From: Bdellovibrionales bacterium
GTDB taxonomy: Bacteria > Bdellovibrionota > UBA1018
Length of the DNA stretch: 64,000 nucleotides
Reading direction: 5' to 3'
Assembly (NCBI GenBank): GCA_016786465.1
Contig: JAEUWC010000005.1
Location: forward strand, 1-64,000
Shown here: positions 5,722-41,990 of the stretch, one piece after another
Numbering within the stretch: position 1 is the stretch's first letter
How the letters are laid out: every line of letters starts with the position of its first letter
The notes under the pieces: model-generated
What the model was told of the DNA's origin: nothing
What the model saw: the letters and a program-made list of their open reading frames with translations, nothing else
The model's database searches: none
Made by a program: the position numbers and the translations under genes

Positions 5722-5724
5722 GAC

Positions 5725-6948: not shown

Positions 6949-6956
6949 GGTTTCCC

Positions 6957-8315
6957 CTAAATAATTTCAAAATAACGTTTCATTTCCCAACTGGTGACCG
7001 CCGCGTGGAATTTTTTCCATTCCCAGTAGCGGGTCTCAGCAAAGTGCCCAACAAACTTTTCGCCAAAAATTTCTTTCGCGACCTTTGATTCAGCCATGCG
7101 ATCGGTCGCTTCTTGAAGTGATCCTGGTAGCTTGGTCGTTCCCGGCGCCGTATAGCCGTTTCCTTGAATCGGCGCGTGCTTCAGTTCCAGTTTCTTTTCC
7201 ATTCCGTAAAGGCCCGCACCCAATGCGGCCGCAATTCCCAAGTACGGATTCACGTCGGATCCCGGAACGCGGGTTTCCAGACGGGTCGCCTTCGCACCAG
7301 ACGGAATGACCCTAAGCGCGACTGTGCGATTATCGACGCCCCAAGTGACTTTCGTTGGGGCCCAGTAACCATCGACCAACCGCTTGTAGCTGTTGATCGT
7401 CGGCGCAAAGAACGGAAGAATTTCAGGAAGGCAATGAAGCTGGCCGGCGACGAAACTTTTAAATTCAGCGCTCATTTTATGCTGCGCTTTTTCATCGTAG
7501 AAACGATTCTGACCCGTCTTGGTGTCGGCCAAGCTTTGGTGGATGTGACCACTACAGCCCGGAAGATCGACGTTCCACTTGGCCATGAAAGACGGCATGA
7601 TCCCAAAGCGCTGTCCAATTTCCTTAGCGCCGGTTTTGAAAAGAACTGCGCGATCGGCTGCTTCAAGCGCGTTTGAATACAGAATCGCTGCTTCGTAAAC
7701 ACCAGGGCCTGTTTCCGTGTGAAGACCTTCAACCGGAACACCAAACTTCAGAAGTTCGTCCATCAATGCGTTAAAGAAAGGCTGATTCTGCGTTGTGCGA
7801 ATCAGCGAATAGCCGAACATTCCCGGCGTGATCGGTTCAGGACGAATGTAGCCCTTGGCTTCTAGGCTTTGCGGGGTTTCGCGAAAATTGAACCATTCGA
7901 ATTCCATTCCATAAAGGGGGTTGCAGCCCATGGATTCAGCACGCGCAATCACCGACTTCAAAGTCTGGCGTGGGCAAACATGTAACGGAGCACCCTTCGA
8001 ATCGACAAAGTCCCCTAAGAAAAACGGAACCGAATCATTCCATGGAATCGGGCGATAAGTATTTAGGTCTAGCCGTGCCTGCGCATCGGGATAGCCCGTG
8101 TGCCAGCCGGTAAAGCTGCCATTGTCGTAAGCGACGTCGCTGGAATCCCACCCAAAAACGACATCACAAAATCCAAAGCCGCCGTCAGCCGCCGAAAGAA
8201 ACTTGTCTTTGTGCAGAAATTTTCCGCGAAGGATGCCGTCGATATCCGTGACTGCGACACGCACTTTTTGGTGAGGACTTTTTTTAACTAAATCTAAAAT
8301 TTCTTGTCGATTCAT
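6957..8315 (-). CDS. Glutamine-synthetase-like gamma-glutamyl-amine ligase (PuuA/GlnA4 type)
   Basis: 452 residues of the glutamine synthetase superfamily. Seen: N-terminal 'VAVTDIDGILRGK' (beta-grasp), 'GMEFEWFNF' (metal-binding Glu), 'ETGPGVYEAAI', 'GCSGHIHQSL', 'NSYKRLVDGYWAPTKVTWG', 'NRTVALRV' and 'ETRVPGSDVNPYLG'. The adenylylation-loop region of true nitrogen-assimilating GlnA is not recognisable. Relatives join glutamate to an amine using ATP (putrescine, isopropylamine, ethanolamine). The open frame extends upstream to 8420, but the ATG at 8315 overlaps the permease stop as ATGA and starts at the domain boundary, so it is preferred. It takes the first intracellular step after uptake by the neighbouring permease. 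Confidence 0.9.
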   Translation of the reverse strand: MNRQEILDLVKKSPHQKVRVAVTDIDGILRGKFLHKDKFLSAADGGFGFCDVVFGWDSSDVAYDNGSFTGWHTGYPDAQARLDLNTYRPIPWNDSVPFFLGDFVDSKGAPLHVCPRQTLKSVIARAESMGCNPLYGMEFEWFNFRETPQSLEAKGYIRPEPITPGMFGYSLIRTTQNQPFFNALMDELLKFGVPVEGLHTETGPGVYEAAILYSNALEAADRAVLFKTGAKEIGQRFGIMPSFMAKWNVDLPGCSGHIHQSLADTKTGQNRFYDEKAQHKMSAEFKSFVAGQLHCLPEILPFFAPTINSYKRLVDGYWAPTKVTWGVDNRTVALRVIPSGAKATRLETRVPGSDVNPYLGIAAALGAGLYGMEKKLELKHAPIQGNGYTAPGTTKLPGSLQEATDRMAESKVAKEIFGEKFVGHFAETRYWEWKKFHAAVTSWEMKRYFEII

Positions 8316-9631
8316 CGATGGGCTTTTTCCTTGATCGCTTTGGGAATACCTAAAATGTACCAGACGTAAGCCAAACCAATAAGACCAATGTAGATTCCAA
8401 AAATGACGGGGGTCTGCCAAACCATTGCGGCAAAGCAGACGAGCGCCAAAATCAGCGCCGTTATCGGAACCACAGGATAAAGCGGAACTTTGAAGGGCCG
8501 ATGCATCTTGGGTTCTGTCTTGCGAAGGCGAATCAGTGCCACCATGGAAACTGCGTAAAGCGTTAGGGCTCCGAAGACCGCTAAAGTGATGATTTCACCC
8601 GTTCGTCCCGTCAAAAGTGCGACGATCCCAACGACGAAATTCACCAAAAGCGCACCCGCTGGGGTTTGCCGTTTTTCTAAAGTTGCCCCAAGCCAACGAG
8701 GTGCGTAACCCACGCGTCCAAATTCCATGATCGCCCGACCCGCGACTAGAACGATTCCGTTGAAACTTGCTACCAAGCCGAAAAGTCCGACGGTCACCAA
8801 AATGTGATAAAGCGCGTGCCCTTCTCCGACCACTTTTCCAAAGGCCAAAGGAAGCGGAGTATCCAGCGGCGTCGTGCTTCCGGGCGCGTAAACGACGGCT
8901 TTCCAACCCGCGACGCCGACCGCGCAAACCAAAGTCAATAACGCTAAAAAAACCAACGTCAAGACCGCCCAAACGAAACCGCGAACGATGTCCTTTTGGG
9001 GGTTCTTCGCTTCTTCGGCGACGTTTGCGATACCTTCAATTGCCAAATAAAACCAAATCGCAAAAGGAATCGCGGCAAATACCCCTTTCCATCCATTGGG
9101 TAATGGATCTTGTGAAAATGCGGCCCATGAAAAATGGGGGCCCGTCACACCCGCGAAAACCAGAAGTTCCAAGATAGCCAAAATCGTAATGGCTAATTCA
9201 AAAACGGCGGACTGCTTCACGCCCCAAATGTTCAAGGCCGTAAAAATGAAATAGGCCGCAACTGCAAAAACCAAGGGGGAAACACCTGGAGCATACGTAG
9301 AAAAGTACCCACCGATCGCCGCGGCGATCGCCGGCGGAGCAAAAACGAATTCCACCATTTGTGCGATCCCACCCAGGTATCCCCATCCCGGTCCCAGCCC
9401 ACGCGATGCGTAGACAAACGCCCCACCGGCTTTCGGAATCGAGCAGGCCAATTCCGCGTAGCTGAAAACGAAGCTGATCGTCATCACGCTGACTAGGATC
9501 GCCGCAATCAGAAGCCCTAAAGGCCCGCCCTCGGGAAGTCCCAGGTTCCATCCAAAGTATTCGCCGGAAATGACGTAACCGACCCCAAGGCCCCAGATCA
9601 TGACTGGGCCTAAACTTTTATTTAGTGACAT
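8312..9631 (-). CDS. APC-family amine permease, ethanolamine permease type
   Basis: 439 residues from the ATG at 9631, with about 12 predicted membrane helices. The N-terminal signature 'WGLGVGYVISGEYFGWNLGL' and the later 'IPKAGGAFVYASRGLGP' and 'EFVFAPPAIAAAIGGYF' match the ethanolamine-transporter branch of the amino acid-polyamine-cation family as I know it. A longer frame starts at 9682, but those 17 extra residues are polar and the codon lies in the loop of a perfect 11-base inverted repeat, so the inner start is chosen. First gene of the operon that runs down to 2728. Confidence 0.88.
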   Translation of the reverse strand: MSLNKSLGPVMIWGLGVGYVISGEYFGWNLGLPEGGPLGLLIAAILVSVMTISFVFSYAELACSIPKAGGAFVYASRGLGPGWGYLGGIAQMVEFVFAPPAIAAAIGGYFSTYAPGVSPLVFAVAAYFIFTALNIWGVKQSAVFELAITILAILELLVFAGVTGPHFSWAAFSQDPLPNGWKGVFAAIPFAIWFYLAIEGIANVAEEAKNPQKDIVRGFVWAVLTLVFLALLTLVCAVGVAGWKAVVYAPGSTTPLDTPLPLAFGKVVGEGHALYHILVTVGLFGLVASFNGIVLVAGRAIMEFGRVGYAPRWLGATLEKRQTPAGALLVNFVVGIVALLTGRTGEIITLAVFGALTLYAVSMVALIRLRKTEPKMHRPFKVPLYPVVPITALILALVCFAAMVWQTPVIFGIYIGLIGLAYVWYILGIPKAIKEKAHR

Positions 9632-9667
9632 AAAATCTTGGGCAAACACATTTCTGCTCGCCCGCTC

Positions 9668-9697
9668 CCGTCCATTCAGCATAAAATGAATGGACGG
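9668..9697. promoter_or_regulatory. Perfect inverted repeat between divergent genes (candidate operator)
   Basis: CCGTCCATTCA at 9668-9678 is exactly complementary to TGAATGGACGG at 9687-9697, with an 8-base centre. It sits between the divergent starts of the permease operon (9631) and the secreted-protein gene (9706). A dyad of this length in the only intergenic gap is a good candidate for a regulator site. An mRNA hairpin is the alternative; no T-tract follows. Confidence 0.55.
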
Positions 9698-15479: not shown

Positions 15480-15983
15480 ATGAAAAAGACGATGATTGTT
15501 TTGTCGCTGCTGTCTGGATTGGCTTCTTCTTTCGCAATGGCGCAGACCCGCCCCCAAGAAGAATGGTTCGTTTGCCGTACCGGCCCGGCGATGCATTATT
15601 CAGTAGAATCTAGATACAATACTACCCATCGCACATTCATGGCCCCAGAAGTGATCGTCGGCTTTGGCTGGAAAGCAAGCGCAGTGGGTTTTGGAAAAGA
15701 TTTGAAGCCAGGTTACTGCGGATGGGGCGGACGCGACGCTACCGCTGCTGAAATGAAGAACAATTATTTTTACGTCATCAACATGGAAGACAAGGTCACC
15801 CTTCGTACTTTCGTCGATGGACGCCAAACGGTGTATTCGGGTCTGTTCGCCCGCCCATTCACCGACTTCAGAAACCAAGACAAAGTCTACTTCATGAAAG
15901 GCTTCATGATGGGCGGATCAGTGGTCATCGACGCCGCCACCCAAACCTTCAGCGGAACAACCCCAATCGGACCTACGCCCTAA
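15480..15983 (+). CDS. Secreted protein of unknown function
   Basis: 167 residues with a clear signal peptide (cleavage after 'SFAMAQ', about residue 21). Only two Cys residues, suited to one disulfide. No family recognised. Convergent with metG, overlapping its last codons by four bases. Confidence 0.75.
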   Translation: MKKTMIVLSLLSGLASSFAMAQTRPQEEWFVCRTGPAMHYSVESRYNTTHRTFMAPEVIVGFGWKASAVGFGKDLKPGYCGWGGRDATAAEMKNNYFYVINMEDKVTLRTFVDGRQTVYSGLFARPFTDFRNQDKVYFMKGFMMGGSVVIDAATQTFSGTTPIGPTP

Positions 15984-17917
15984 TCGGCTGACGTCGTCAC
16001 GCCTGCAACGGCTGGAAAAAATTGCTGCTTGGGTCCGATTTCGTGTCCCGGCGCAATGGGTGTTCCCAATTCTTCAACCCGGAATACGTCCTTAGGCAGA
16101 CGCAAAGTTTCGCGAAGCCTTTCCATCGTTTCCGGCGCAAAAGGATAAAGCAGGATCATTAGGTTTTTCAGAACATAAAAGGACGAATACAACGCGTCCT
16201 TCCGCGCTTCTTCAGGGAAGCGATCATCATGGGGTTTGAACTGCGTGAAAAGGCTGTTGATCTGGCGCGCGTAATTTTCGATCTGCCCCAGCAACACCGG
16301 ATAGTCGGCGCGTTCCATTGATTTTACGTAGCGTCGAACCAGGTTCAAGGTTTCGTCCGCCACCTTGGGATTCAGTTTCCCTTCAGGAACCTTGCCCCCG
16401 AACTTCGAATGCACGGCTGAAATCGGTTTTTCAAAAGCCGCATTCATCGGGCCTGCCAAGAATTTGTTCTTTTCGTCTAAGGTGTGAAGATCAAAGTTCG
16501 AAGATTTTTCGGCAAGCGAAAGCGTCGCAATGAAGTAGCGAACCTGTTCACCCGTGTAGCCTTTTTCAGAAATCAGCTGGTCGCCTGTGATCCAATTGCC
16601 ACGGGACTTAGACATTTTTTCGCCGTTCACCATCAGGTGATACACGCTGAAGATGTCCGTCATTTGAATTTCATCTGAAGCTGGCATGCGCATCGGATCT
16701 TTCTGGGTTCCTAGCCACATCGCTCCTTGCATCAAGACATAAAAGAAAACGTTGTCCTGACCGATGAACTGGGCGACGCGCGCTTTAGGGTTCTTCCAGA
16801 ATTTGGAATAGTCTTCTGGGTTCTTTCCTTTTTCTTTCAAAGCGACTTTGGCGAATGAAATCGGAGCAATCAAAGAATCCGGCCAAACGTAAAGGGTCTT
16901 ACCCTTCATTTCCGGATCGATTTCCGTCGGTACCGGAATCCCCCATGAAACGTCGCGGGTGATTGAACGATGCGCCCATTCGTCGACCAGTTCCGTCTTG
17001 ATCGAAAGTGCGGCTTCTAACTGAGCCCGGCCTTTTTCCAGATCCGCCATCGATTCAAACTGAAGCGCAATCTTCTTTCCAGGCGCGTACTTGGGTTTGT
17101 GCTTGGGAAGCGAACCCTTCATTTCCTTGTAGGCAGGTTCATGAATCGCTTCAAAACGAATCGATGGAAGCAATGTCCCCAAAACTTCGGAAAGGATCGA
17201 CTTGCGCCAAGTTTTTTCCTTTCCCTGAACCCAGACTCGCATCACTTCGGCGACTTTCCACATGTCTAACCAAAGATGCGCGGTATCCTTCAAAACGGGG
17301 ACTTCTCCGGTGATGGCACTTTTGGGGTTCAAAAGCTCGGCAGGCTGGTATTGAAGCCCACAGACTTCGCATTCATCGCTATACGCGCTTAGATTGTCGC
17401 ACTTAGGATTCGGGCATTTGCCTTTGACATAGCGATCCGGAAGGAATCGATTGATCTTGGCATCAAACCACTGAAGCGAAGTTTTCTTTTGAAGCATTCC
17501 ATTTGCGTGAAGCTTGCGTAGAAAATCCTGCGAAAGTTCGGAATGAACCGGAAAGCATTCTGGGCGAGACGTTCCCGTGTAAACGTCGACGCCAATCGAA
17601 TAGCTGGCCAAGGTCTTCTTTTGTTTGGAATGAATGCCGTCGATGAATTCTCGAATCGGAATTCCTGCAGCCAGTGCGGAAACTTCGCTGGTGGATCCGT
17701 GATCGTCGGTTCCGTTTAAGAAAAGTACATTTTCGCGACCCACCAGCATTCCCATGTACCTAGAAAATATATCGGCAGGAACATGAACGCCGGCCAAGTG
17801 CCCCAGATGCAAAGGACCGTTCGCATAGGGCATGCCTGCCGTCACGACGACCTTTTCAGGTCGGGCGACTTGTTTGATCACGGATGGGATGTCAGTAGGT
17901 GGAACAAAAGTTGTCAT
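15980..17917 (-). CDS. metG: Methionyl-tRNA synthetase
   Basis: 645 residues. HIGH-type motif 'GPLHLGHLAG' at residues 34-43, zinc-knuckle 'CPNPKCDNLSAYSDECEVCG' in the connective peptide, 'GIPVP', and the 'KMSKSRGN' loop near residue 432. It charges tRNA-Met in the cytoplasm. No C-terminal tRNA-binding (EMAP-like) domain is present, so it is probably the short form. The open frame runs upstream to 18091 inside the next gene, but the ATG at 17917 gives the usual N-terminus and one-base spacing from the preceding stop. This is an essential gene in an otherwise envelope-rich stretch. Confidence 0.95.
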   Translation of the reverse strand: MTTFVPPTDIPSVIKQVARPEKVVVTAGMPYANGPLHLGHLAGVHVPADIFSRYMGMLVGRENVLFLNGTDDHGSTSEVSALAAGIPIREFIDGIHSKQKKTLASYSIGVDVYTGTSRPECFPVHSELSQDFLRKLHANGMLQKKTSLQWFDAKINRFLPDRYVKGKCPNPKCDNLSAYSDECEVCGLQYQPAELLNPKSAITGEVPVLKDTAHLWLDMWKVAEVMRVWVQGKEKTWRKSILSEVLGTLLPSIRFEAIHEPAYKEMKGSLPKHKPKYAPGKKIALQFESMADLEKGRAQLEAALSIKTELVDEWAHRSITRDVSWGIPVPTEIDPEMKGKTLYVWPDSLIAPISFAKVALKEKGKNPEDYSKFWKNPKARVAQFIGQDNVFFYVLMQGAMWLGTQKDPMRMPASDEIQMTDIFSVYHLMVNGEKMSKSRGNWITGDQLISEKGYTGEQVRYFIATLSLAEKSSNFDLHTLDEKNKFLAGPMNAAFEKPISAVHSKFGGKVPEGKLNPKVADETLNLVRRYVKSMERADYPVLLGQIENYARQINSLFTQFKPHDDRFPEEARKDALYSSFYVLKNLMILLYPFAPETMERLRETLRLPKDVFRVEELGTPIAPGHEIGPKQQFFPAVAGVTTSAD

Positions 17918-17918
17918 A

Positions 17919-18806
17919 TTAAAAAGCGTATCCCAACGCCGCGGACATTGTGAATCCCTTGCTGTAGCCACTGCGATCATCTGAACTGATGACCGGAACA
18001 CTGTAACCCAAAAGCGTTTCAAGGGTTGTTTGCGAACCCAGTACAAATTGCATTCCTGCTTCCGGATTGACCAAGACACCTTTTCCGTCAAAAGCTACGA
18101 CCCCGTCCGCGGGCAAGACGCCCGAAGAAATATCCCAGGTCGACCAGAAGTAATTGGTGCGCAAACGAAAGATCGCGTCGTGCTGCTGAACAGGCACTAA
18201 ATGCGTGTATGAAATCCCAAGCTGTGTCGTTGAATAGCTTTCATCTAGAATGTTCAGTTGATTTCTGGAACCCTGGCCCCGCCCCACGTTCAATCCAAAA
18301 AGGCCGCGGTCACCGACTGGAAATTCGACGGATGCGCGCACCATGGGATGGCTCAGAAGCAGAAGTCCGACCTTGATGTGCTTTCGATTGGGATATCGAA
18401 TTGCCGGTTTTTCCGTTTCGGGATTTTTCTGGGAAACTTGTAAGTAGTCTTCACGTATCACAATGGGCGGCAACGCTGGCGGTTGCAGAATTCCAGGTTG
18501 AACGGTCACAGGCGCGGCTGCATTCGCGGCTGCGGCTTGTACCGGCCGCGTTTCGCAGCTGATCTTTCCGTAAGCTTCCTTGCACCGATAGCCGCAGGCC
18601 AAATTTCCGTACGCTTCGATACACTTGTCTTCTGGGTGGCTTCCACATTCCAGTTTGCCATAGGCCTGAATGCAATCACCAAAGCCGCATTTCTGCTTCC
18701 CGTAGGCTTCGACGCAGACTTCTTTCCACGCCTGCTGAGGCTGAACTGGTTGTTGTGCAAAAGACGAAACAGCCCCGAAAAGGCCCAAAGCCCAGAAAAT
18801 CTTCAT
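17919..18806 (-). CDS. Outer-membrane protein with four cysteine-rich EAYGK repeats
   Basis: 295 residues. Signal peptide (about 1-18), then four tandem repeats at about 30-85 of the form Cys-x-(E/Q)-A-Y-G-(K/N)-x-x-Cys-G: 'CVEAYGKQKCG', 'CIQAYGKLECG', 'CIEAYGNLACG', 'CKEAYGKISCE'. A Pro/Ala linker follows, then a beta-rich C-terminal region (about 140-295) ending 'LGYAF', as in outer-membrane barrels. The repeats would be a periplasmic or surface disulfide-knotted domain. No known family. Directly upstream of metG by one base. Confidence 0.8.
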   Translation of the reverse strand: MKIFWALGLFGAVSSFAQQPVQPQQAWKEVCVEAYGKQKCGFGDCIQAYGKLECGSHPEDKCIEAYGNLACGYRCKEAYGKISCETRPVQAAAANAAAPVTVQPGILQPPALPPIVIREDYLQVSQKNPETEKPAIRYPNRKHIKVGLLLLSHPMVRASVEFPVGDRGLFGLNVGRGQGSRNQLNILDESYSTTQLGISYTHLVPVQQHDAIFRLRTNYFWSTWDISSGVLPADGVVAFDGKGVLVNPEAGMQFVLGSQTTLETLLGYSVPVISSDDRSGYSKGFTMSAALGYAF

Positions 18807-23629: not shown

Positions 23630-23926
23630 ATGACTCGAGAAGAATTACTCACAGTCGTGAAAGAATTGGTCGTCGAGCTCAACGCAAAAGCAAACCCTTC
23701 GCAGGCCAAAGAATTCGCAAAACTAAAGAACATCGTCGACGAAAAAGTCACTCTGGATTCTCCGCTTGCAAGCCTGGGCTGGGATTCGCTTCAAATGACT
23801 TTTCTTCTGGTAGCGCTTGAAGAGCGGCTGGGTATCGACACTTCAACCCTGTCGATGTTCGATCTTTTTTCGGTGGGAGACTTTGTGGCCGAGCTTGAAA
23901 CCTTGGTCAATAAGAAGAAAGGCTAG
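23630..23926 (+). CDS. Acyl carrier protein of a biosynthetic cluster
   Basis: 98 residues with the carrier-protein fold. The phosphopantetheine attachment site is Ser53 in 'LGWDSLQMT', followed by 'LLVALEERLGIDTSTLSMFDLFSVGDFV'. 'GWDSL' in place of 'GADSL' is typical of stand-alone carriers that work with adenylating enzymes rather than fatty acid synthase. It is the first gene of the cluster that runs to 31367, and the fatty acyl-AMP ligase at 27343 is its likely loader. Confidence 0.92.
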   Translation: MTREELLTVVKELVVELNAKANPSQAKEFAKLKNIVDEKVTLDSPLASLGWDSLQMTFLLVALEERLGIDTSTLSMFDLFSVGDFVAELETLVNKKKG

Positions 23927-23929
23927 ATC

Positions 23930-25090
23930 GTGGTCGACTTTTCTTTGACCGACGAACAGACGCAGTGGCGAAACCAGGTCAGAAAGTTCACGCAGGAAGA
24001 AATCATTCCGCGGACGGACCTAGACATTCACGGCCACTTTCCCAAAGACCTTTATCAAAAAGCCTTTGAAGCCGGGCTGATCACGGCCGCCATACCCAAG
24101 ACATATGGCGGTCAGGGGCGATCTTACTTTGAACTGATCTTGGCAGCAGAAGAACTGGGCTATGGCGACCTGGGCGTCGCGACTTCGACGATGCTTGGAA
24201 AGCTTTCGACGGCGTCGCTTCTGAATTTCGGAACTGAAGACCAGAAGACCCGCTGGATCGTCCCGATGACCAAGAAACTGACCTTTTCGTCGCATTGCTG
24301 GACCGAACCTGAAGGAAGTTCCAATCTGGTCGGCAGGCCCGCGACCACGACGGCAAAGCCGGTCCCAGGCGGATTCCTTTTGAACGGGGCCAAATCCACG
24401 ATTTCAAATGCGACGGTCGCTTCAGTCTTCACAGTTTTTGCGCGAATGAATCCAGGCCCGGATGGGTTGACCTGTTTTGTTGTACCGCGCGACGCAAAAG
24501 GCGTCGAAGTCACCAATCCCTACAAGAAAATGGGGCAAAGGGCCGCAGATACCGGCCGAATCGATTTCCACGACGTGTTTGTTCCAGAAGCTGACATGAT
24601 CGGAAAACCCGGCCAAGGAACCCAAATCGGCATGCGGGCTATTCGCGCTAGCCGAGTCGGTGTTGCCGCCATGGGAATTGGTGTTTCTTGTCGCGCGCGC
24701 GATTTGGCAAAAGTTTATGGCCACAGCCATTTTGCGGGCGACGGGAAAGCGCTGATTCAGCAACAGGATTTCCGTTTTCAGATCGCCGAAATGGAAGCGG
24801 AAATCGAAATGCTTCGAGCGCTGACTTGGCGCGCCTGCTGGGAAGTTGAAAACGGACCAGAAGCCATGAAACTTTCCAGTAGCGCCAAATGGGCCGGCGG
24901 CGAAATCGCAGTTCGAATCACCAACCGTGCATCCGAAATGCTAGGGGCCATGGGCTATCTAGAATCGGGATTGGCCGAAAAATTGATTCGCGATGCAAAA
25001 GTCCTGACCATTTACGAAGGCCCAGGGGCCGTCCAGAAAATGCTGATCGCCGACGTCGCCTGTCGTTTGGGGGCTGGGCTTAAAAAATGA
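23930..25090 (+). CDS. Acyl-CoA (or acyl-ACP) dehydrogenase
   Basis: 386 residues, full length for the family. Seen: N-terminal 'FSLTDEQTQWRNQVRKFTQEEI', 'CWTEPEGSSN' (FAD loop), 'GFLLNGAKSTISNAT', 'ASRVGVAAMGIGVS' and 'EMLGAMGYLESGLAEKLIRDAKVLTIYEGPG', where the Glu of 'YEGP' is the usual catalytic base. GTG start three bases after the ACP stop. It would introduce a double bond beside the thioester of an acyl chain. In this cluster the chain is probably ACP-bound, as proposed for dehydrogenases in lipopeptide clusters. Confidence 0.93.
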   Translation: MVDFSLTDEQTQWRNQVRKFTQEEIIPRTDLDIHGHFPKDLYQKAFEAGLITAAIPKTYGGQGRSYFELILAAEELGYGDLGVATSTMLGKLSTASLLNFGTEDQKTRWIVPMTKKLTFSSHCWTEPEGSSNLVGRPATTTAKPVPGGFLLNGAKSTISNATVASVFTVFARMNPGPDGLTCFVVPRDAKGVEVTNPYKKMGQRAADTGRIDFHDVFVPEADMIGKPGQGTQIGMRAIRASRVGVAAMGIGVSCRARDLAKVYGHSHFAGDGKALIQQQDFRFQIAEMEAEIEMLRALTWRACWEVENGPEAMKLSSSAKWAGGEIAVRITNRASEMLGAMGYLESGLAEKLIRDAKVLTIYEGPGAVQKMLIADVACRLGAGLKK

Positions 25091-26157
25091 GATTTTCTTT
25101 GTTTTTTGAAATGCAGATCTCGCAGCCCGATCGAAAGAAAGAGGCCCAGCTTTTTCACGACTGCGTGGCCCAGGCCGTTTTGGCAGATCAAGTCGGCTTT
25201 GACGGGATCTGGGCTGTGGAACACCATGGCCTGTACGAATACGCGCATTCATCCGCGCCGGAAACTTTTCTTGCCTTTGTGGCTGCCAAGACGAAAAAAA
25301 TCAGCATCGGCCATGGGGTCAGCCTTTTGCCCGGGCGATACAACCACCCCATCCGCGTCGCTGAACGCGTTGCAACCTTGGACATCCTTAGCCAAGGTCG
25401 CGTCCTTTGGGGAACCGGAAAATCGGGAACTGCCGTTGAAACAGGTGCATTCGAAATTGCTCCCACAGAACTAGAAAGCCAGTGGCGCGAAGCGCTTCAG
25501 ATGATTCCCAAGATGTGGACCGAAGACATCTTTAGCTGGCAGGGCAAACACTACAATATTCCGCCCACACAGATCGTTCCAAAACCTTTCCAAGATCCGC
25601 ATCCACCGATCTTTGCCGCCTGCAGCCGCCCTGAACTTGCAGTCGGTGCGGGCGAAATGGGACTGGGCGTTCTGAACGTCGCCGTTTACCGCGACATCGA
25701 ACTGGCCAAAAGCATTCAGAATTACCGAGACGCGATTGCGCGCGCAAAACCCGTTAGTACGGTCACAATGAATCGGTACTGCTGTAATCCTTCTTCGCTG
25801 GTTCTGAAGAACGACAGAAAAGCAGCGCAGTACGGGCTTTGGGGTTCCCAGTTTTTTCTTCGCTCGATGATGAACTATTACCTGACTGACAAAAGACCCA
25901 CGGGACCACTTAAAGTTTCGCGCGAAATGCCCACTGACCAGCAAGTCGAAGGTTTTATGAAAACCCGAAACACGCGCGATTCACAGCTTTCGATCGTGAT
26001 TGGCGACCCCGTTTGCGCGCGCGAATCCGTTCAACGGTTCAAAGACGCGGGTGTCGACGAATTGATTCTGGTCATGCAAACGGGCGTTCAACCCCATGAA
26101 CTGATCATGGAATCCATTCGAACAGTGGCCGAAGAGGTCATCCCGCACTTCAAATGA
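25087..26157 (+). CDS. Luciferase-like flavin monooxygenase
   Basis: 356 residues with the bacterial luciferase TIM-barrel pattern: 'FDGIWAVEHHGLYE' with the active-site His pair, 'ISIGHGVSLLPGRYNHPIRVAERVATLDILSQGRVLWGTG', 'WQGKHYNIPP' and a C-terminal 'RFKDAGVDELILVMQ'. These enzymes use reduced FMN and oxygen to oxidise aldehydes, alkyl chains or amines. The ATG overlaps the preceding stop (ATGA), so it is coupled to the dehydrogenase. The substrate is presumably a chain held on the ACP or released from it. Confidence 0.9.
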   Translation: MRFSLFFEMQISQPDRKKEAQLFHDCVAQAVLADQVGFDGIWAVEHHGLYEYAHSSAPETFLAFVAAKTKKISIGHGVSLLPGRYNHPIRVAERVATLDILSQGRVLWGTGKSGTAVETGAFEIAPTELESQWREALQMIPKMWTEDIFSWQGKHYNIPPTQIVPKPFQDPHPPIFAACSRPELAVGAGEMGLGVLNVAVYRDIELAKSIQNYRDAIARAKPVSTVTMNRYCCNPSSLVLKNDRKAAQYGLWGSQFFLRSMMNYYLTDKRPTGPLKVSREMPTDQQVEGFMKTRNTRDSQLSIVIGDPVCARESVQRFKDAGVDELILVMQTGVQPHELIMESIRTVAEEVIPHFK

Positions 26158-27338
26158 AGTTCAAAAAGCCTACCGAAGCGCTGCTCAGGCCTGCTGTTGC
26201 TCCGATCGAACCCACACCCTGGGCCCTGAGAAGGACAGAAGCCCTATTAAAGATTGCGGGACCGATCGGTCGCACCATTTTAGGAAAGCACATTCAAGAC
26301 ATCCAAATTCAGGGAATCGAAAATCTGGCGAAGGGACCCAAACTGGTTCTGATGAACCACAGCAATCCGTTTGATCCGCTGATACTGACTTTTTTTGGGC
26401 GCCAACTGATTCATTTTTTGATCACTGAACCCTACATGACTGACCGACTGGCGTCGCGTTTCACCGCTTACGTGGGTCAGATTCCAAAACGAAAGCTGGA
26501 TCCGGACACCCGTTCGATTCGCGCCATGAAGAAGTGGTGCCAACTGGGGGGTGCAGTGGGCATGTTTCCTGAAGGTCATTTCCCTTGGGATGGAAAGCTG
26601 CTTCCGCTTCAACCTGGACTAGATCAGTTGATCCGCTACCTGGATGTGCCCGTCGTCACGGTGCGCTTGATCAACAGTGATCGTCTTTGGCCCGCTTGGG
26701 CCAAGCACCCTAGAAAATCCAAGTTACGTTTGGAAATCGATGCGCCTAGACGGTTTTCTTCTGACCAGCCCATCATGAAACCGATTGCCGAAAGCCTTAC
26801 TGTTGACCCGGAAAATTGCCAACGCTTTCCCGTCCAAGGGAAGAATCTGGCCGAAGGATTGGCTCACTTCATTCAGTATTGCTTCGACTGCGGGGCCGAT
26901 CAGTCTTTGGATGATCGGGGGGATGAACTGAAGTGTTCCCAGTGCAAGAAATCGTGGACCGTAACGACCGATAATCGGGTCGGAGAAATATCGATCGGCG
27001 ACGCTTGGAAAAAAGTTCGGTCGGCGCTTTCAAAAAAGTGGGGAAAGAATCCAACGCTGGAATCCCGCGCTTCGGTCACCGTCTTTGACGCGACGTCTTT
27101 GCAATGGACCCGAGTCGACGAGGGAATCCTTTACCTTCAGAATCAGGTTTTGAAAGCAGGATCTTGGAAATTGGAATTGAAGGAACTGCAGGCGCATACT
27201 TTGGATTGGGGCGATTTGATTCTGCTTCGAACCGAAAGAAAACGATTTGCAGTTCGGATGCCGACCGAAAGCCGCGCGGTTTGGGGACACGCCCTAGATT
27301 TGCGTGATTCACAAGATTTGCCTGATTCAAGGGGCTGA
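26154..27338 (+). CDS. PlsC-type acyltransferase with C-terminal zinc ribbon
   Basis: 394 residues. The acyltransferase domain (about 35-235) has the catalytic HX4D box 'NHSNPFD', 'YVGQIPKRKLDPDT' and 'GMFPEGHFPWDG'. After it, residues about 240-268 contain two CX2C pairs ('CFDCG' and 'CSQC') spaced like a zinc ribbon, then about 120 residues with no recognised fold. The domain usually transfers an acyl group from CoA or ACP to a lysophospholipid. The extra zinc ribbon is unusual. ATGA overlap with the preceding gene. It could be the offloading step that joins the cluster's acyl product to a lipid; this is inferred. Confidence 0.88.
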   Translation: MKFKKPTEALLRPAVAPIEPTPWALRRTEALLKIAGPIGRTILGKHIQDIQIQGIENLAKGPKLVLMNHSNPFDPLILTFFGRQLIHFLITEPYMTDRLASRFTAYVGQIPKRKLDPDTRSIRAMKKWCQLGGAVGMFPEGHFPWDGKLLPLQPGLDQLIRYLDVPVVTVRLINSDRLWPAWAKHPRKSKLRLEIDAPRRFSSDQPIMKPIAESLTVDPENCQRFPVQGKNLAEGLAHFIQYCFDCGADQSLDDRGDELKCSQCKKSWTVTTDNRVGEISIGDAWKKVRSALSKKWGKNPTLESRASVTVFDATSLQWTRVDEGILYLQNQVLKAGSWKLELKELQAHTLDWGDLILLRTERKRFAVRMPTESRAVWGHALDLRDSQDLPDSRG

Positions 27339-27342
27339 TGCG

Positions 27343-29103
27343 ATGAAATACGAATCCGCGCTAGCCCAGTTCCGCAGCCTGAACCAAAAGTATCCAGACC
27401 GCGTTTTGTACACTTCGATTGCCGAAAACGGAAAAGATGTTTCAACCTTCACGACCCGTCAGGCCTATGACCGCGCAGAACAAATCGCGCACGCTCTGAT
27501 TAACGACTATTCTCTAAAAAGCGGGGACCGCGTTCTTCTGGTCTATCCGCCGGGGCTGGAATTTGTCGAAGCTTTCATCGGATGCCTGATGGCGGGAATC
27601 ATTCCAGTGCCTGTTCCACCGCCGATTCCATTGCGCCCTGATCTGGGTCTTCCGGGTTATGTTTCGACGGTTACGGACTGTCAGGCAAAAGCCCAACTGA
27701 CTTGCCAAAGTTATTCAGTATCGCGAACCTTTGGTCGAATCTTGGGGATCTTAAAGCCCAGTGCCAAGTGGCCCGATCTACCCTGGATTGTGACAGACAA
27801 GATTCAGGTGGTCTCGGGCAAAAGAAGTGTTCCAGAACTGGATCCCGAAAAAAATCAAATCGCCTTTCTTCAGTACACATCGGGATCGACTCGGGCCCCT
27901 CGCGGGGTTTGCATCAGTTTTGGAAATCTTCGCGCACAAACCTATCTTCTTAAAACTGACAATCTGATGAAGTGGGACGGGGGCGTTGGAGTGTTTTGGA
28001 TGCCCCACTACCACGACTTCGCACTGATTGGCGGGATCATTTCAGCGATGTGCGGAAACTATGAAGTCGTCCTGTTTTCAGCGTCTTCTTTTCTAAAGCG
28101 CCCAGGTCTTTGGGGAGAAATCTTGACCCGCTACCGCGCGACTCATACCGGGGCTCCTGACTTTGGCTATCACCTGCTGATCAAGAAGACGACGCCTGAA
28201 GAACGCGCGAAATGGGATCTAAGTTCGATGACCGTGATGATGAATGCAGCCGAACCCATCCGGCAGCGGACGGTCGACGCGCTTTTGCAAGAACTGAAAC
28301 CCGCACGCCTAAACCCCGATGCATTTTGCCCTTCTTACGGACTTGCCGAACACACGATCGCGGTTTCAGTTCACGGAAAGAAGCGCTTCACTTTCAAGCG
28401 CGACACACTAGAAAAGTTAGGACAAAAAGCACATTGGACCCGCCTACCCGCCGGTGACCCAAACGAAGTCACGCTTTTTGGATGCGGAAAACCTTGCGAA
28501 GGGGTTTTGGTCCGAATCGTCGACCCCGAAACGCTGAAGGAACTTCCGGAAGGCCATGTCGGAGAAATCTGGGTCGATTCCGAAAATAAGGCCAAGGGCT
28601 ATTTTGGTCGACCCGATGAATCCGCCGCACGATTCGAAGCCAAGCTAGAAGGTCACACAAACACTTGGCTCAGGACACGGGACTTAGGCGTGATCTGCGA
28701 AGGCGAAATCGTGATTACCGGAAGACTGGACGACCTTCTGACCATTCGGGGACGCAACATCTATCCCCAAGACGCCGAAGGCTGGGTCGCCGACGCTGAC
28801 CCCAGGGTTCGTCCAGGCCGGGTTCTTGCCTTTGGGATTCAAGAGCAGAACCAGGTCTTTATCGTAGTCGAATTGAAAGAAGAAAAACCCAGTGAAGAAG
28901 TCATGTCTGAAGTCGCATCGAACGCGAGAATCGTTCTGCTTCAGGAAATGGGGCTTCCCGAAGCCGTCTTTATCTTTGTCCCGCAAGGGACCATCCCGAA
29001 GACGACTAGCGGAAAACTTCAACGCAACCGATGTCGGGCCGACTGGCTGGCAGGAAAACTATCCCATTTCAAAGTGGATCAGGGTTTAAGACCCCTTGAA
29101 TGA
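27343..29103 (+). CDS. Fatty acyl-AMP ligase (FAAL-type adenylating enzyme)
   Basis: 586 residues from ATG 27343 behind AAGGGG; the frame extends to 27304 but overlaps the acyltransferase. Adenylation motifs: 'LQYTSGSTRAPRGV' (P-loop), 'MPHYHDFALIGG', 'SYGLAEHT', 'WLRTRDLG' and 'ITGRLDDLLTIRGRNIYPQDAEG'. The 'GRNxYPQDxE' ending and the 'YHD' box are those of fatty acyl-AMP ligases, which activate fatty acids with ATP and pass them to a carrier protein instead of CoA. The ACP at 23630 is the likely acceptor. This enzyme would start the pathway. Confidence 0.9.
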   Translation: MKYESALAQFRSLNQKYPDRVLYTSIAENGKDVSTFTTRQAYDRAEQIAHALINDYSLKSGDRVLLVYPPGLEFVEAFIGCLMAGIIPVPVPPPIPLRPDLGLPGYVSTVTDCQAKAQLTCQSYSVSRTFGRILGILKPSAKWPDLPWIVTDKIQVVSGKRSVPELDPEKNQIAFLQYTSGSTRAPRGVCISFGNLRAQTYLLKTDNLMKWDGGVGVFWMPHYHDFALIGGIISAMCGNYEVVLFSASSFLKRPGLWGEILTRYRATHTGAPDFGYHLLIKKTTPEERAKWDLSSMTVMMNAAEPIRQRTVDALLQELKPARLNPDAFCPSYGLAEHTIAVSVHGKKRFTFKRDTLEKLGQKAHWTRLPAGDPNEVTLFGCGKPCEGVLVRIVDPETLKELPEGHVGEIWVDSENKAKGYFGRPDESAARFEAKLEGHTNTWLRTRDLGVICEGEIVITGRLDDLLTIRGRNIYPQDAEGWVADADPRVRPGRVLAFGIQEQNQVFIVVELKEEKPSEEVMSEVASNARIVLLQEMGLPEAVFIFVPQGTIPKTTSGKLQRNRCRADWLAGKLSHFKVDQGLRPLE

Positions 29104-29112
29104 AAGGCGAAG

Positions 29113-30156
29113 ATGGAACACGCAGATTTTATCAGCTTAAGAAAAAAGGTTTTGGAACTGGACCCTGGCCTTCCCTTTCAGAAAAAATACCCTGGGCACA
29201 TTGTTTTTGGTCTGGGGTGGATGTGTTTTGTCGCTGCGGTTATCACGGTCAACCTGACTTATGACCTTTCGCTGGGGCTTAAACTTTTGTCATCGCTTGC
29301 GCTGGGAATCGCTTTTTCGTCTTTAGCCTTCTTCAATCACGAACTGCTTCACGGAACGATGATCAAGTCCACATTCTGGATGCACGTCCTGGCCTATCCA
29401 GGTTTTTTCATCTTGGCCCTTTCGCCAGAACTTTGGAGAACCTGGCACAACCAACTTCACCACTTTAACACCAATCAACTGGGTGGAATGGATCCCGATC
29501 TTGCGGGTGACTGGCAAAGATTGAAGGATCTGGGAATTCGAAAAAGAACGGTCGACATTCTACCGGGCGGAAACAATTTTCTTGCAGCGATTTTTATGGT
29601 GATCGCCTTCAACCTTCAGTGCTTAAACGTAACTTGGGTTCGATCCAAAGAAAGACCCAAGATTTACGCCAGCATGAACCGGACTTTGGTCAATATTGAA
29701 AGCCTTGCTTACTACGCAATTTGGATCGCACTGGCAGTCATCCTTCCCTTTGAACAGTTTCTGTACTTATTCTTGATTCCGCTATTTTTTACAAACAGCG
29801 TGATCATCAATTTCGTCGGTGTTCCCCACAATATGCGCCCCCTATCTAAGGAAAATCGGCCGCTACTGACCACAATCAGTCTGAAGGTGCCCCGAATCGT
29901 CAATTGGCTTGCCATGAACTTTTGTTACCACTGCGAACACCACATATTCCCCGAAGCCAATCACAAGTTTCTTCCGCGAGTTCACACGGTCTTAGTGAAG
30001 GAATATTCGGATCAATACTATTTCGTACCGTACTTTAAGGCGCTTGCGGCCCTTTACACTTCCCCACGTGCCTATTTTGATGAAGATCACCTTTTCAATC
30101 CGCACACTGGCGAAAAGACAAACATGCACCAGATGGCTCGAGAAAGATTCCGATGA
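29113..30156 (+). CDS. Membrane-bound fatty acid desaturase
   Basis: 347 residues with about four to six membrane helices and the three histidine boxes of the di-iron desaturase/hydroxylase superfamily: 'NHELLHGTM' (about residue 76), 'WHNQLHHFNTN' (about 113) and 'HCEHHIFPEANH' (about 275). It uses oxygen to insert a double or triple bond, or a hydroxyl, into an acyl chain. AAAGGCGAAG precedes the ATG. With a FAAL and an ACP in the same cluster the set resembles the JamA/JamB/JamC trio that makes terminal alkynes, a comparison of gene content only. Confidence 0.92.
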   Translation: MEHADFISLRKKVLELDPGLPFQKKYPGHIVFGLGWMCFVAAVITVNLTYDLSLGLKLLSSLALGIAFSSLAFFNHELLHGTMIKSTFWMHVLAYPGFFILALSPELWRTWHNQLHHFNTNQLGGMDPDLAGDWQRLKDLGIRKRTVDILPGGNNFLAAIFMVIAFNLQCLNVTWVRSKERPKIYASMNRTLVNIESLAYYAIWIALAVILPFEQFLYLFLIPLFFTNSVIINFVGVPHNMRPLSKENRPLLTTISLKVPRIVNWLAMNFCYHCEHHIFPEANHKFLPRVHTVLVKEYSDQYYFVPYFKALAALYTSPRAYFDEDHLFNPHTGEKTNMHQMARERFR

Positions 30157-31367
30157 AATCCATCACCCAAGCGAAATTCAGCACCTACGAAAAGCGGGCG
30201 ATTTCGATCTTAGTCTTGCTTCAGTTCACGCTGGTTCTTGACTTTATGGTCATGGCACCGCTGGGGGCCGTATTGATGCCTACCTTCGGGATCGCACCGC
30301 AGCAGTTTAGCCTTTTAGTGGCGTCGTACGCTCTGTCCGCATGCTTTTCTGGGTTTTTTTCTTCGGGTTTTGCCGACAGTTTTGAACGAAAAAAGTACCT
30401 GACTTGGATCTACTTGGGTTTCTTGGCGGGAACTTTTTCTTGTGCTGTGGCGAATTCGTACGAAACGCTCTTGGCCGCGCGAATGATCACCGGTCTTTTT
30501 GGTGGGATCATCGCTTCGCTGATTCAAACCTTGATCACCGACATTTTCCCGGAAGGTAAGCGCGGTCAGGTCATTGGCTTCACGCAAATTTCGTTTGGTT
30601 TCTGTCAGGCCTTTGCACTTCCGATTGCTTTGTACTTTTCAAACCGCTGGTCGTGGCATGCTCCCTTCTTAATGGTTGTTGCACTTGGAATTCTTTTGCT
30701 GGGATACATTCTGGTCGAACTTCGCCCGATCCGGGATCACCTGGCGCTTCAAAAGCACGAGGGGCACTGGACGACGCTGGGTCGACTTCTTCGAACAGAA
30801 AGCAACCGATGGGGATTCTTGGGCACATTGATCATGACCTTGGGAGGCTATCTTCTGATGCCATTTACCAGCGCGTACAATGTGAACAATCTGGGCATGG
30901 ACATCCAGATGCTTCCCTATTTTTACCTTTGCTGTGGGGTTTCAGTCATTCTCATGGCCCCTAGTCTGGGCAAGATCGCAGACCGTGTAGGAAATTTTAG
31001 GGTTTACGTTTTTGGTGTTTTCATCGCAGCCGGTATGGCGCTTTTCTATACACAGTTGACTCAAGCGAATTTCGCACTGATGACCGCGACCAATATTTTG
31101 GTCTTTCTGGGATTTTTTTCGATCATCATTCCTTTTCAATCGATGGTCACACGACTTCCGTCACCTGGACAACGCGCGGGATTCATGTCCATCACCGCGT
31201 CTCTTCAGCAGTTGGGCGGAGGAATTTCGGTCTTGATCGCGGGTTCAATCATCACCAAGGATGCCGCGGGCAAGCTGCAGAACTTCCCAAGGATTGGTTA
31301 TGCGCTGGCGGCGATCTTGGCAGCTTCGTTCTTTGTGACCCGAAAAATCAACTCGCGCCTGCGATAA
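30153..31367 (+). CDS. MFS transporter (probable product exporter)
   Basis: 404 residues with 12 predicted helices. The loop 2-3 motif is 'GFADSFERKKYL', close to the GxLaDrxGrr/k consensus of the major facilitator superfamily; 'RMITGLFGGIIASLIQTLITD' and 'FFSIIIPFQSMVTRL' are further family-like stretches. The start overlaps the desaturase stop as ATGA, which places it last in the cluster and makes export of the product, or immunity to it, a reasonable guess. Confidence 0.9.
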   Translation: MKSITQAKFSTYEKRAISILVLLQFTLVLDFMVMAPLGAVLMPTFGIAPQQFSLLVASYALSACFSGFFSSGFADSFERKKYLTWIYLGFLAGTFSCAVANSYETLLAARMITGLFGGIIASLIQTLITDIFPEGKRGQVIGFTQISFGFCQAFALPIALYFSNRWSWHAPFLMVVALGILLLGYILVELRPIRDHLALQKHEGHWTTLGRLLRTESNRWGFLGTLIMTLGGYLLMPFTSAYNVNNLGMDIQMLPYFYLCCGVSVILMAPSLGKIADRVGNFRVYVFGVFIAAGMALFYTQLTQANFALMTATNILVFLGFFSIIIPFQSMVTRLPSPGQRAGFMSITASLQQLGGGISVLIAGSIITKDAAGKLQNFPRIGYALAAILAASFFVTRKINSRLR

Positions 31368-39168: not shown

Positions 39169-40566
39169 ATGTCGATCTTGCTGTCGCTTCTATTTTCATC
39201 CGCATTTGCAGCCGAACCTAAGATCACGGTGGTGCGTCCCCGTGAAATAGGCGACATCCTGGTAAACCCTGGAATCGGCTTCACGACTTTTCAGCGATTT
39301 CAGGGTGACGCCTTGAATGCGGGCGATCAGTGGCCGGAAGGATATTTAGGACAAACCAAGGTCCCTACGCGGCGGGGTGGTTATTATCCGGATTCATCGA
39401 TCGCCTATATCCGAATTTACTGGAAAGAAATCGAACCGCTGCCCGGAAAATATCAATGGTCAATGATCACGGAAGCGATCGAAAAAGCAAAAAAGCGCGG
39501 TCAGAAGCTGATGATCCGCTTGATGCCTTACGGTGAAATCAAGAACACAAAGGAAGATGTCCCGAATTGGTATCGTGAAATCGGGCGCGAACCGATCCAG
39601 GCCAAGTACCCCAATCCCGCATGGCGAATCGACCACACCCGCCCCGAGTACCGCGACGTCTATGGGCGTTTGATCGACGAATTCGCGAAAAACTTTGACG
39701 GAAACGAAGGGATTGAAGCCGTTGATATTTCTTTCGTTGGCCCATGGGGCGAAGGTTCGGGTTCCGACCTGCTTCCCGAACCCATTCACCAGGATCTTTT
39801 GAATCGCTACTTGAATGGCTTTAAGAAAACCCACTTGATTGCCCAAATGGCAGACGTTTTGGGCCCAAAGACAACCGTTGAAAAGGCACCCACTGTTGGC
39901 CTTCGCTTTGATTGCGTCGGCGACGCCGGAATCTTTTCAAAGACATGGTCGCACATGCTGGACCTTTACCCACAAGCCATCATCAAATCGGGAATGAAAA
40001 ACGCTTGGATCGAAAGGCCCGTTTCGCTGGAAGCTTGCGGCGTCATGGATGGCTGGAAAAAATTCAAAGTCGATGTCGACTACATGATTGACCAAACGCT
40101 GAAGTGGCACGTTTCGTCTTTCAACGCAAAGTCGTCCAACATCCCCCCGGAATGGAAACCCAAAATCAAGCGTTGGCTGAATCAAATGGGGTACCGCCTG
40201 GTCCTTCGGAAGTTCACGTTTCCGGAAGAATCAGTCTTAGGTGAAAAAATCGCTTACACATCTTGGTGGGAAAACAAAGGCGTTGCGCCCCCTTATCAAA
40301 ACTACCCGGTTGCACTTCGCCTAAAGAACGAGAAATCCGAACACACTTTGATTCTAGAATCCGATATTCGAAAATGGCTTCCGGGTGACAACCTTCTGGA
40401 TGGATCCGTTTCTTTGCCAACGGACTTTCCCGCCGGAGAATTCGACATCGCGCTGGGCCTGGTGAATCCCACGAATCGCAGCCCAGCAGTTCGCTTGGCG
40501 ATTCACGGTCGAACCAGCGATGGCTGGTACCCTTTAGGAAAAATCCGGATTGGCCCCAAGCAATGA
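39169..40566 (+). CDS. DUF4832-type secreted glycoside-hydrolase-like protein
   Basis: 465 residues with a signal peptide (cleavage after 'SSAFAAE'). It starts with 'DILVNPGIGFTTFQRF', the opening of DUF4874/DUF4832 proteins, and then shows a TIM-barrel-like series: 'IAYIRIYWKEIEPLPGKYQWSM', 'IRLMPYG', 'AVDISFVGPWGEGSG', with Glu at the strand ends as in retaining glycosidases. The C-terminal part (about 345-465) is a beta-sandwich, 'YTSWWENKGVAPPYQNYPV'. It probably binds or cuts a polysaccharide in the envelope. The stop overlaps the GH3-type gene by four bases. Confidence 0.83.
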   Translation: MSILLSLLFSSAFAAEPKITVVRPREIGDILVNPGIGFTTFQRFQGDALNAGDQWPEGYLGQTKVPTRRGGYYPDSSIAYIRIYWKEIEPLPGKYQWSMITEAIEKAKKRGQKLMIRLMPYGEIKNTKEDVPNWYREIGREPIQAKYPNPAWRIDHTRPEYRDVYGRLIDEFAKNFDGNEGIEAVDISFVGPWGEGSGSDLLPEPIHQDLLNRYLNGFKKTHLIAQMADVLGPKTTVEKAPTVGLRFDCVGDAGIFSKTWSHMLDLYPQAIIKSGMKNAWIERPVSLEACGVMDGWKKFKVDVDYMIDQTLKWHVSSFNAKSSNIPPEWKPKIKRWLNQMGYRLVLRKFTFPEESVLGEKIAYTSWWENKGVAPPYQNYPVALRLKNEKSEHTLILESDIRKWLPGDNLLDGSVSLPTDFPAGEFDIALGLVNPTNRSPAVRLAIHGRTSDGWYPLGKIRIGPKQ

Positions 40567-41990
40567 ACCGCGATGCCAGCCTTCGACTCCAAGAAAGGCT
40601 GCTTCGGCAACTGATTTCAAATTCGGCTTCGACCCGCTTTGGACGCGAGCACGGATTTTCAGACCTTTCCAAAAGCTTTGAATACCAAAAGTACAAAGCC
40701 CAAGTCCCGCTTCGAAACTATGAAGATTATTCGCCATATTGGGCAGCTTTGGCCCAGGGCGAAGCCGATGTGCTTCACCCGGGCTTTCCAGATTACTTCG
40801 CGCTCAGTTCCGGAACTTCTGGCGGGCCAAAAAAGATCCCACTGACCCGACTTCAAGTACGACAGGGAATTCGAAGAACGACTTGGGCCTTTCTGCGATT
40901 TCTGTGGTCAGAAAAAACGGTGCAACCTTTGACCTGGAAGCTGATGTACCTTTCTGCCCCAGCCGTCCTTTCAAACCATTCAGGCCGGCCCACGGCGTTG
41001 CTTTCGGCACTCAGCCACGACCAGTTAAAAAGATCCCCCCTCAAGTCACGAACACTTCCCAGCTGGGGCGCCAATTCGGATCCCGATCCTCAGTCTCGAA
41101 AGAAAAAGATCGTTGACGAACTTCTTTCAGAAAAGATCAGCTACTTTTCTGGAACCCCGCCTTGGATGCTGACGATCCTGGACGAATGCGCGAAGTCTTC
41201 GGGGCGCTCGATTCCTGAACTTTTTCCCCACTTACATTGCTTCGGCTCGGGTGGAACAGCTATGGACCCCTATCGGCCCCAGTTCGAATCCCGATTTCCC
41301 GGACGAAAACTGATTTTCTTTGAAACATTTACCGCGACTGAAGGGGTGATTGGTTCTCGTGAAAGTTCAAATGCCCAAGACTATCTACTGGATCCGGAAA
41401 TGCTGGTGTTCGAGTTCGTTCCCTATCAAGACGGAAAAATCCAGGGTTCCGGGCGCTGCTTACTGGCTGACGCCGTGACCGGTCAAGACTACGCTTTGGC
41501 CATTTCTAATCCTTCAGGATTGTTTTCCTATCTTTTGGGCGATGTGATTCGTTTAACTTCGACCGATCCGTTTCGTTTCGAAGTACGCGGACGAACCGAA
41601 AATTTTCTGAATCGATACGGCGAACACTTGCTGGGATCCGAACTGGAACGCGTCATGCAAACCGTTCGCGTTCAGTCGGGTCAAAAGATCACCGAATTCA
41701 CGGTTTTTGATCAGCCATCAGGCTACACCCTTTGCGTTGAAGGTCCCGAAGGCATGGATTTAGAAAAGATCGTCCAGCTATTTGATCAAGAACTTTCTAA
41801 CGGAAATCCGCTGCTTCGAAATGCTAGGCGCGGCGATGTGGCTTCAGCTTGGAAGATTCACCGGCTTAACGAGGGGTTCTTGTCCCAGTTTTTCTTGGCG
41901 CAAGGACGGGTTTATGGACAAAGCAAAATCCCAAGGATTATCAGTCGAACGGTCGAAGCCGAAGCCTTGATGAAGGCCATCATCCGCTAA
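40563..41990 (+). CDS. GH3-family acyl-adenylating enzyme
   Basis: 475 residues of the GH3 (auxin-responsive) adenylation superfamily. Motifs: 'FALSSGTSGGPKKIPLT' (ATP P-loop), 'HCFGSGGTAMD', 'FFETFTATEGVIG' and 'LGDVIRLTSTDPFRFEVRGRTENFLNRYGEHL'. GH3 enzymes activate a carboxylic acid as the acyl-AMP and pass it to an amino acid or other nucleophile. Substrate unknown. It is translationally coupled to the DUF4832 protein at 39169, so a shared role in an envelope or extracellular product is plausible but unproven. Confidence 0.88.
   Translation: MNRDASLRLQERLLRQLISNSASTRFGREHGFSDLSKSFEYQKYKAQVPLRNYEDYSPYWAALAQGEADVLHPGFPDYFALSSGTSGGPKKIPLTRLQVRQGIRRTTWAFLRFLWSEKTVQPLTWKLMYLSAPAVLSNHSGRPTALLSALSHDQLKRSPLKSRTLPSWGANSDPDPQSRKKKIVDELLSEKISYFSGTPPWMLTILDECAKSSGRSIPELFPHLHCFGSGGTAMDPYRPQFESRFPGRKLIFFETFTATEGVIGSRESSNAQDYLLDPEMLVFEFVPYQDGKIQGSGRCLLADAVTGQDYALAISNPSGLFSYLLGDVIRLTSTDPFRFEVRGRTENFLNRYGEHLLGSELERVMQTVRVQSGQKITEFTVFDQPSGYTLCVEGPEGMDLEKIVQLFDQELSNGNPLLRNARRGDVASAWKIHRLNEGFLSQFFLAQGRVYGQSKIPRIISRTVEAEALMKAIIR

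Follow-up and report, generated by a model that had tools for sequence, protein, structure and literature searches.

We analysed a stretch of 64,000 nucleotides (the window) from a Bdellovibrionales bacterium (assembly GCA_016786465.1, contig JAEUWC010000005.1, positions 1-64,000), in which seven intact open reading frames (ORFs), all on the + strand, occupy positions 23630-31367. Their products match the Pfam families PP-binding, acyl-CoA dehydrogenase (N/M/C), Bac_luciferase, Acyltransferase (PlsC), AMP-binding, FA_desaturase and MFS_1, and we propose below that this gene cluster may make a modified membrane lipid. A further gene, which we call X, accompanies the cluster in relatives, among them the genomes G037, G028 and G049. 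The features of the cluster are as follows:

23630..23926, + strand: acyl carrier protein (ACP), stand-alone, 98 aa (PF00550); DS motif invariant in five genomes
23930..25090, + strand: acyl-CoA/acyl-ACP dehydrogenase (ACAD), 386 aa, with the catalytic Glu in IYEG (PF02771/02770/00441)
25087..26157, + strand: luciferase-like flavin monooxygenase (LLM), 356 aa (PF00296; alignment to relatives)
26154..27338, + strand: PlsC-family acyltransferase with a C-terminal zinc ribbon and PH-like domain, 394 aa (PF01553)
26880..26945, + strand: zinc-ribbon-like CxxC...CxxC of the PlsC protein (four invariant Cys: C243, C246, C261, C264)
27057..27299, + strand: PH-like beta domain and C-terminal helix of the PlsC protein (residues 302-382; AlphaFold2, Foldseek)
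27339..27342, + strand: junction of the PlsC and ligase genes, the site of X in G037, G028 and G049; X is absent here
27343..29103, + strand: fatty acyl-AMP ligase (FAAL), 586 aa from ATG 27343 (PF00501; solved FAALs; insertion)
29113..30156, + strand: integral-membrane fatty-acid desaturase, 347 aa, with three invariant His boxes (PF00487)
30153..31367, + strand: putative MFS exporter, 404 aa (PF07690)

The first-pass annotation of this DNA had described a one-strand, seven-gene cluster with overlaps. The ORFs, families, strand and tight packing were as described; however, one overlap was lost. Since the relatives start their FAAL at the position equivalent to ATG 27343, we placed the start there instead of at GTG 27304, and the apparent overlap of PlsC with FAAL therefore turns into a 4-base gap. 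The resulting spacing along the seven genes (+3, -4, -4, +4, +9 and -4 bases) is typical of translational coupling. Catalytic motifs are intact, namely the DS of the ACP, the YEG that holds the catalytic Glu of the ACAD, HX4D and FPEG of the PlsC protein, and the His boxes of the desaturase. Domain scans of the cluster proteins and of the other window proteins scanned revealed no modular nonribosomal peptide synthetase (NRPS) or polyketide synthase (PKS) domains (condensation, ketosynthase), in agreement with the earlier annotation.

Recurrence of the cluster and the distribution of gene X

Searching 369 genomes from the window's phylum with the LLM identified five at E < 1e-60, the window's own among them, and a profile of gene X added a sixth, G132, whose contig stops within the LLM gene. 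The cluster core recurs as a unit in these 6 of 369 genomes (G000, which is the window genome, G037, G028, G049, G124 and G132), spanning six genera. A profile of the PlsC protein that includes its tail retrieved exactly the same six at 1e-25, making this protein the most cluster-specific part. Because these core genes also sit together in five further genomes, each from a genus other than the window's, we conclude that the layout is not due to chance; scattering of the genes in relatives, which had been put forward as grounds for abandoning the idea of a functional set, was not what we found. G037 has the gene order of the window plus X, and its public record is labelled Lysobacteraceae, yet it falls in the same order as the window genome, so it is probably a mislabelled metagenome-assembled genome (MAG). 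The desaturase-MFS pair is placed first in G049 and forms a separate divergent operon in G028, and the G124 copy reads FAAL-ACP-ACAD-LLM-PlsC-X with neither gene adjoining. The desaturase and MFS genes are accessory to the core.

Apart from the cluster genes themselves, no flanking genes are common to the window and its relatives. Plasmid-borne relatives of the LLM (~40%) do not have the other cluster genes around them. The PlsC profile gave nothing at 1e-40 in thin samples of two other phyla (398 + 296 genomes), and a scan of genome contigs returned only three relatives already found and two unrelated weak matches. A literature search for the gene combination found no description of it, and we found no described cluster of which this one is a member.

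Gene X (about 190-204 aa) lies next to PlsC in all five other copies and is located between PlsC and FAAL in three of them (see above); in the four copies for which the overlap of X with PlsC was measured, it comes to 4-29 bases. A search with the X profile detected no X at that junction or anywhere in the window genome, which is 97% complete. X has no Pfam match to PF13444, the family of OlsB-type proteins; its AlphaFold2 model shows a GNAT-like order of strands and helices, and a Foldseek search with this model placed FeeM at the top, with a TM score by query length of 0.63-0.69 over its chains, compared with 0.39-0.54 for the other GNATs listed. The model thus points to X as a GNAT-type N-acyltransferase, nearest FeeM, and a probable amide former.

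Distant X-like proteins occur in 27 further genomes of the phylum, with up to four per genome (loci L069-L079), and none of the eleven X-like loci examined is surrounded by a cluster. OlsB-type genes (PF13444) are present separately in five of the cluster genomes; in G028, G000 and G049 such a gene is paired with a PlsC-like gene, apart from the cluster (L080, L081, L083). A GH3 amido-synthetase 9 kb downstream was considered as a substitute for X and rejected, since GH3 occurs in 11 of 58 relatives regardless. In the window, a gene for a DUF4832 protein precedes one for a GH3-family protein (acyl-acid amido synthetase) at 39169-41990, and the genome has a second GH3 gene.

Enzymes and exporters of the cluster

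Among solved structures, the best matches of the ligase are FAALs or FAAL-like domains, at 430-227 bits, with eighteen such chains ranking above the first CoA ligase (119 bits). The protein also has ~26 extra residues between its YG motif and VGEIWV that are absent from five CoA-ligase-type relatives, in keeping with the FAAL-specific insertion described as a class feature (PMC8460268); the insertion is shorter in G028. These sequence comparisons support assignment of the ligase as a FAAL rather than a CoA ligase. Both this identity and the presence of a dedicated ACP, encoded by its own PF00550 gene in the cluster, had been proposed in the first-pass annotation, and both stand. G037 contains a second FAAL cluster (G037:C2:100000-119000, L040) that adjoins an ACP and a desaturase of weak similarity (36% over 45 aa and 24%, respectively), a trio that is a possible true FAAL-ACP-desaturase set.

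The ACAD is 52-81% identical to its relatives, and its nearest solved structures are of the MCAD type, with prolyl-carrier-protein dehydrogenases more distant; its EGT motif is EGP in the window copy only. The LLM is the most conserved cluster protein (67-83%), and its nearest solved structures are 7bip and PuwE (6ket). The oxygenase domain of PuwE has a proposed part in building the 3-amino-2-hydroxy acyl chain of puwainaphycins (PMC4219810); given this proposed role of a near solved relative, the LLM may hydroxylate the acyl chain. For the desaturase, the best NCBIfam match is DesB, at 192 bits, below the cut-off of 500. Two copies of the cluster have a P450 and an MMPL exporter.

The PlsC protein matches PF01553, with HX4D and FPEG invariant in the alignment, and its nearest fold is the lysophosphatidic acid (LPA) acyltransferase PlsC (5kym). 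Its best NCBIfam match is acyl-[ACP]--phospholipid O-acyltransferase (PRK08633), at 47 bits against a cut-off of 1221. In the tail, four Cys that are invariant in six sequences form a zinc-ribbon pattern, with weak matches to zinc-ribbon Pfam families, and the PH-like domain (AlphaFold2 pLDDT 73.5) matched PH domains in Foldseek (e.g. 1fao, TMt 0.62). From this model, the tail may have a lipid-facing or membrane-recognition role.

A putative exporter is encoded in or next to each copy. Four copies have the MFS protein (best NCBIfam match MxcK, 197 bits, below the cut-off of 525), and MMPL proteins adjoin the G124 and G132 copies and lie near that of G049. In G028, genes for a LolA-like protein, an FtsX permease and an ABC ATPase directly precede the desaturase-MFS pair on the same strand; this Lol-like set is the strongest hint of a lipid carried between membranes, in one copy of six.

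Candidate product and alternative readings

We tentatively favour, at somewhat less than an even chance, a reading in which the cluster is a dedicated fatty-acyl track that makes a modified membrane lipid by way of FAAL/ACP, ACAD, LLM, PlsC and, in the relatives, X. The FAAL would activate a free fatty acid as acyl-AMP and load it onto the cluster's own ACP. While bound to the carrier, the chain would next be modified by the ACAD and LLM, probably through alpha,beta-dehydrogenation and hydroxylation; in four of six copies the desaturase may introduce another double bond. To judge by fold and by the coupling of the genes, X, in the five of six genomes that encode it, would join the chain to an amino acid or amine through an amide bond, and the PlsC-zinc-ribbon-PH protein would form an ester at the membrane, following the two-step aminolipid logic of OlsB/OlsA (PMC11631085) or GlsB/GlsA (PMC12479983). 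MFS, MMPL or Lol-like transporters may move the lipid across or between membranes. The first-pass annotation had left the product as either small or a modified membrane lipid; X, the zinc-ribbon and PH-like tail of PlsC, and the variable exporters, none of which it had noted, lead us to lean towards the membrane lipid, and a small secreted molecule is now less favoured. We consider the window copy probably functional, because its seven genes are intact and its branch in the cluster tree is not much longer than that of G037 (0.23 versus 0.19); it probably makes an ester-only product or borrows an N-acyltransferase from elsewhere.

Several observations weigh against the membrane-lipid reading. 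X is missing from the window itself, and hence the aminolipid component draws on the relatives. Sequence profiles link X neither to OlsB-type (PF13444) proteins (hhalign probability 0.5%) nor to solved structures, including FeeM, so that X is assigned by fold only, from a model with a pLDDT of only 70 built on four sequences. The ACAD and LLM steps are tentative, and a hydratase or aminotransferase that would complete a standard route is absent. MFS exporters serve secreted metabolites too, and a membrane-lipid product is what we infer. Many of the genomes are draft assemblies, and the named ones are MAGs.

The similarity of X to FeeM, its top fold match, could also suit a secreted N-acyl amino acid or amide of the FeeM/NAS type, such as a signal or antibiotic, with X amidating acyl-ACP, PlsC and LLM tailoring the product, MFS or MMPL proteins exporting it, and the window copy degraded or altered. 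NAS enzymes use acyl-ACP (PMC8762209), every copy has a putative exporter in or beside it, and the patchy distribution is typical of specialised metabolism. We nonetheless regard this as unlikely, if still deserving some weight: there is no sign of decay in the other genes of the window copy, although it has no X, the most cluster-specific part is a membrane PlsC with a PH-like tail, and the ThiF and nitroreductase partners of N-acyl dehydrotyrosine clusters are not among the cluster genes. That the window copy is a degenerate, non-functional remnant left after loss of X is improbable; X is cleanly missing from the PlsC-FAAL junction, and the change of EGT to EGP in the ACAD is confined to the window, but all seven frames are full length with all catalytic motifs, and the branch length is like that of the intact G037 copy.

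Two further readings assign the chain a different fate. In the manner of LplT-Aas phospholipid remodelling, the MFS, PlsC and acyl-ACP synthetase could put a modified chain on a lysophospholipid, a possibility to which the NCBIfam match of PlsC to PRK08633, its nearest fold (LPA acyltransferase PlsC) and the X-free version in the window all lend something. It is quite unlikely, however: the ligase belongs to the FAALs and its ACP is a protein of its own, the proteins are unfused, and the five other copies all have X; a dehydrogenase, a flavin oxygenase and a dedicated ACP are not known as parts of Aas. The first-pass annotation had invoked JamA/B/C, and FAAL, desaturase and ACP do occur together in four copies. 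That the cluster makes a fatty acyl group ending in an alkyne or alkene in this way is highly improbable, and the analogy is weak: the desaturase resembles ordinary desaturases, being nearest the DesB type, is missing beside the G124 copy and stands in a separate divergent operon in G028, and the scheme has no role for ACAD, LLM, PlsC or X.

It is possible, though on the unlikely side, that the cluster represents a new class of membrane lipid, combining a private FAAL/ACP chain, LLM oxidation, an ester formed by the zinc-ribbon/PH-like PlsC, and an amide-forming GNAT family known to date from this phylum only and lacking in one lineage, which would have another product. If the membrane-lipid reading is true, the phylum of Bdellovibrio has a lipid pathway that draws on free fatty acids, something a predator could take from its prey, and bypasses CoA. 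Chemistry of the FAAL/ACP kind, described chiefly in natural-product pathways, would here be joined to the two acyl-transfer steps by which membrane aminolipids are made. Copies with X and copies without it occur in nature and can be compared directly by experiment, and the cluster-specific zinc-ribbon/PH-like PlsC can serve as a marker in searches for further copies.

In its logic, the cluster resembles FAAL/ACP/dehydrogenase systems, of which afc is one, as well as the acyltransferase pairs of aminolipid synthesis. The mycobactin side-chain genes mbtK/L/M/N likewise combine a GNAT, an ACP, a FAAL and an acyl-ACP dehydrogenase; however, we found only a weak match to MbtN (44 bits, cut-off 700), and the cluster's PlsC, LLM and desaturase have no mbt counterpart. 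The Aas/LplT system brings together MFS, PlsC and acyl-ACP ligase functions, as here, but differs in the class of its ligase, in lacking the separate ACP and tailoring oxidases, and in the fusion of PlsC to the synthetase. JamA/B/C shares FAAL, desaturase and ACP; the cluster has extra core enzymes and no PKS, and its desaturase is not in every copy. OlsB/OlsA and GlsB/GlsA couple a GNAT-type N-acyltransferase to a PlsC-type O-acyltransferase, as X and PlsC may do in the relatives, should X prove to be a GNAT, whereas the cluster has a dedicated FAAL/ACP and chain-tailoring enzymes; from OlsB/OlsA it differs also in the lack of a sequence link between X and OlsB-type proteins, the separate location of the OlsB-type genes and the absence of X from the window. 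FeeM/NasY-type enzymes resemble X in fold, as modelled, and the known ones use acyl-ACP, but X has no detectable sequence homology to them and their partner genes are different. The afc cluster (AFC-BC11, Burkholderia) has a FAAL, one carrier protein, an acyl-ACP dehydrogenase and a desaturase, with no NRPS condensation domains (PMC12186527), all of which our cluster has in common with it; the afc adenylation enzyme, KAS III-like transferases, citrate synthase and methyltransferase have no equivalent in the cluster.

History of the cluster and other features of the window

The cluster tree joins G000 with G037, and a same-family clade of G000 and G028 was rejected (p 0.0375). With rpoB, G000+G028 was weakly preferred, and G000+G037 was not rejected (p 0.28). 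Thus, comparison of the two trees suggests, but does not show, horizontal transfer of the cluster. MetG proved unusable as a phylogenetic marker. The methionyl-tRNA synthetase of the window (15980-18091) is of a type found in G049 (66% identity), with no close form in G028 or G037, and MetG types are patchy in the order.

Elsewhere in the window, a row of - strand genes (3510-9682) encodes an aldehyde dehydrogenase, a gamma-glutamyl hydrolase-type peptidase (Peptidase_C26), an Fe-alcohol dehydrogenase, a glutamine-synthetase-like protein and an amino-acid permease, and looks like a utilisation cluster for gamma-glutamylated amines (putrescine-type). A large serine recombinase is encoded near the contig end, at 61425-63164.

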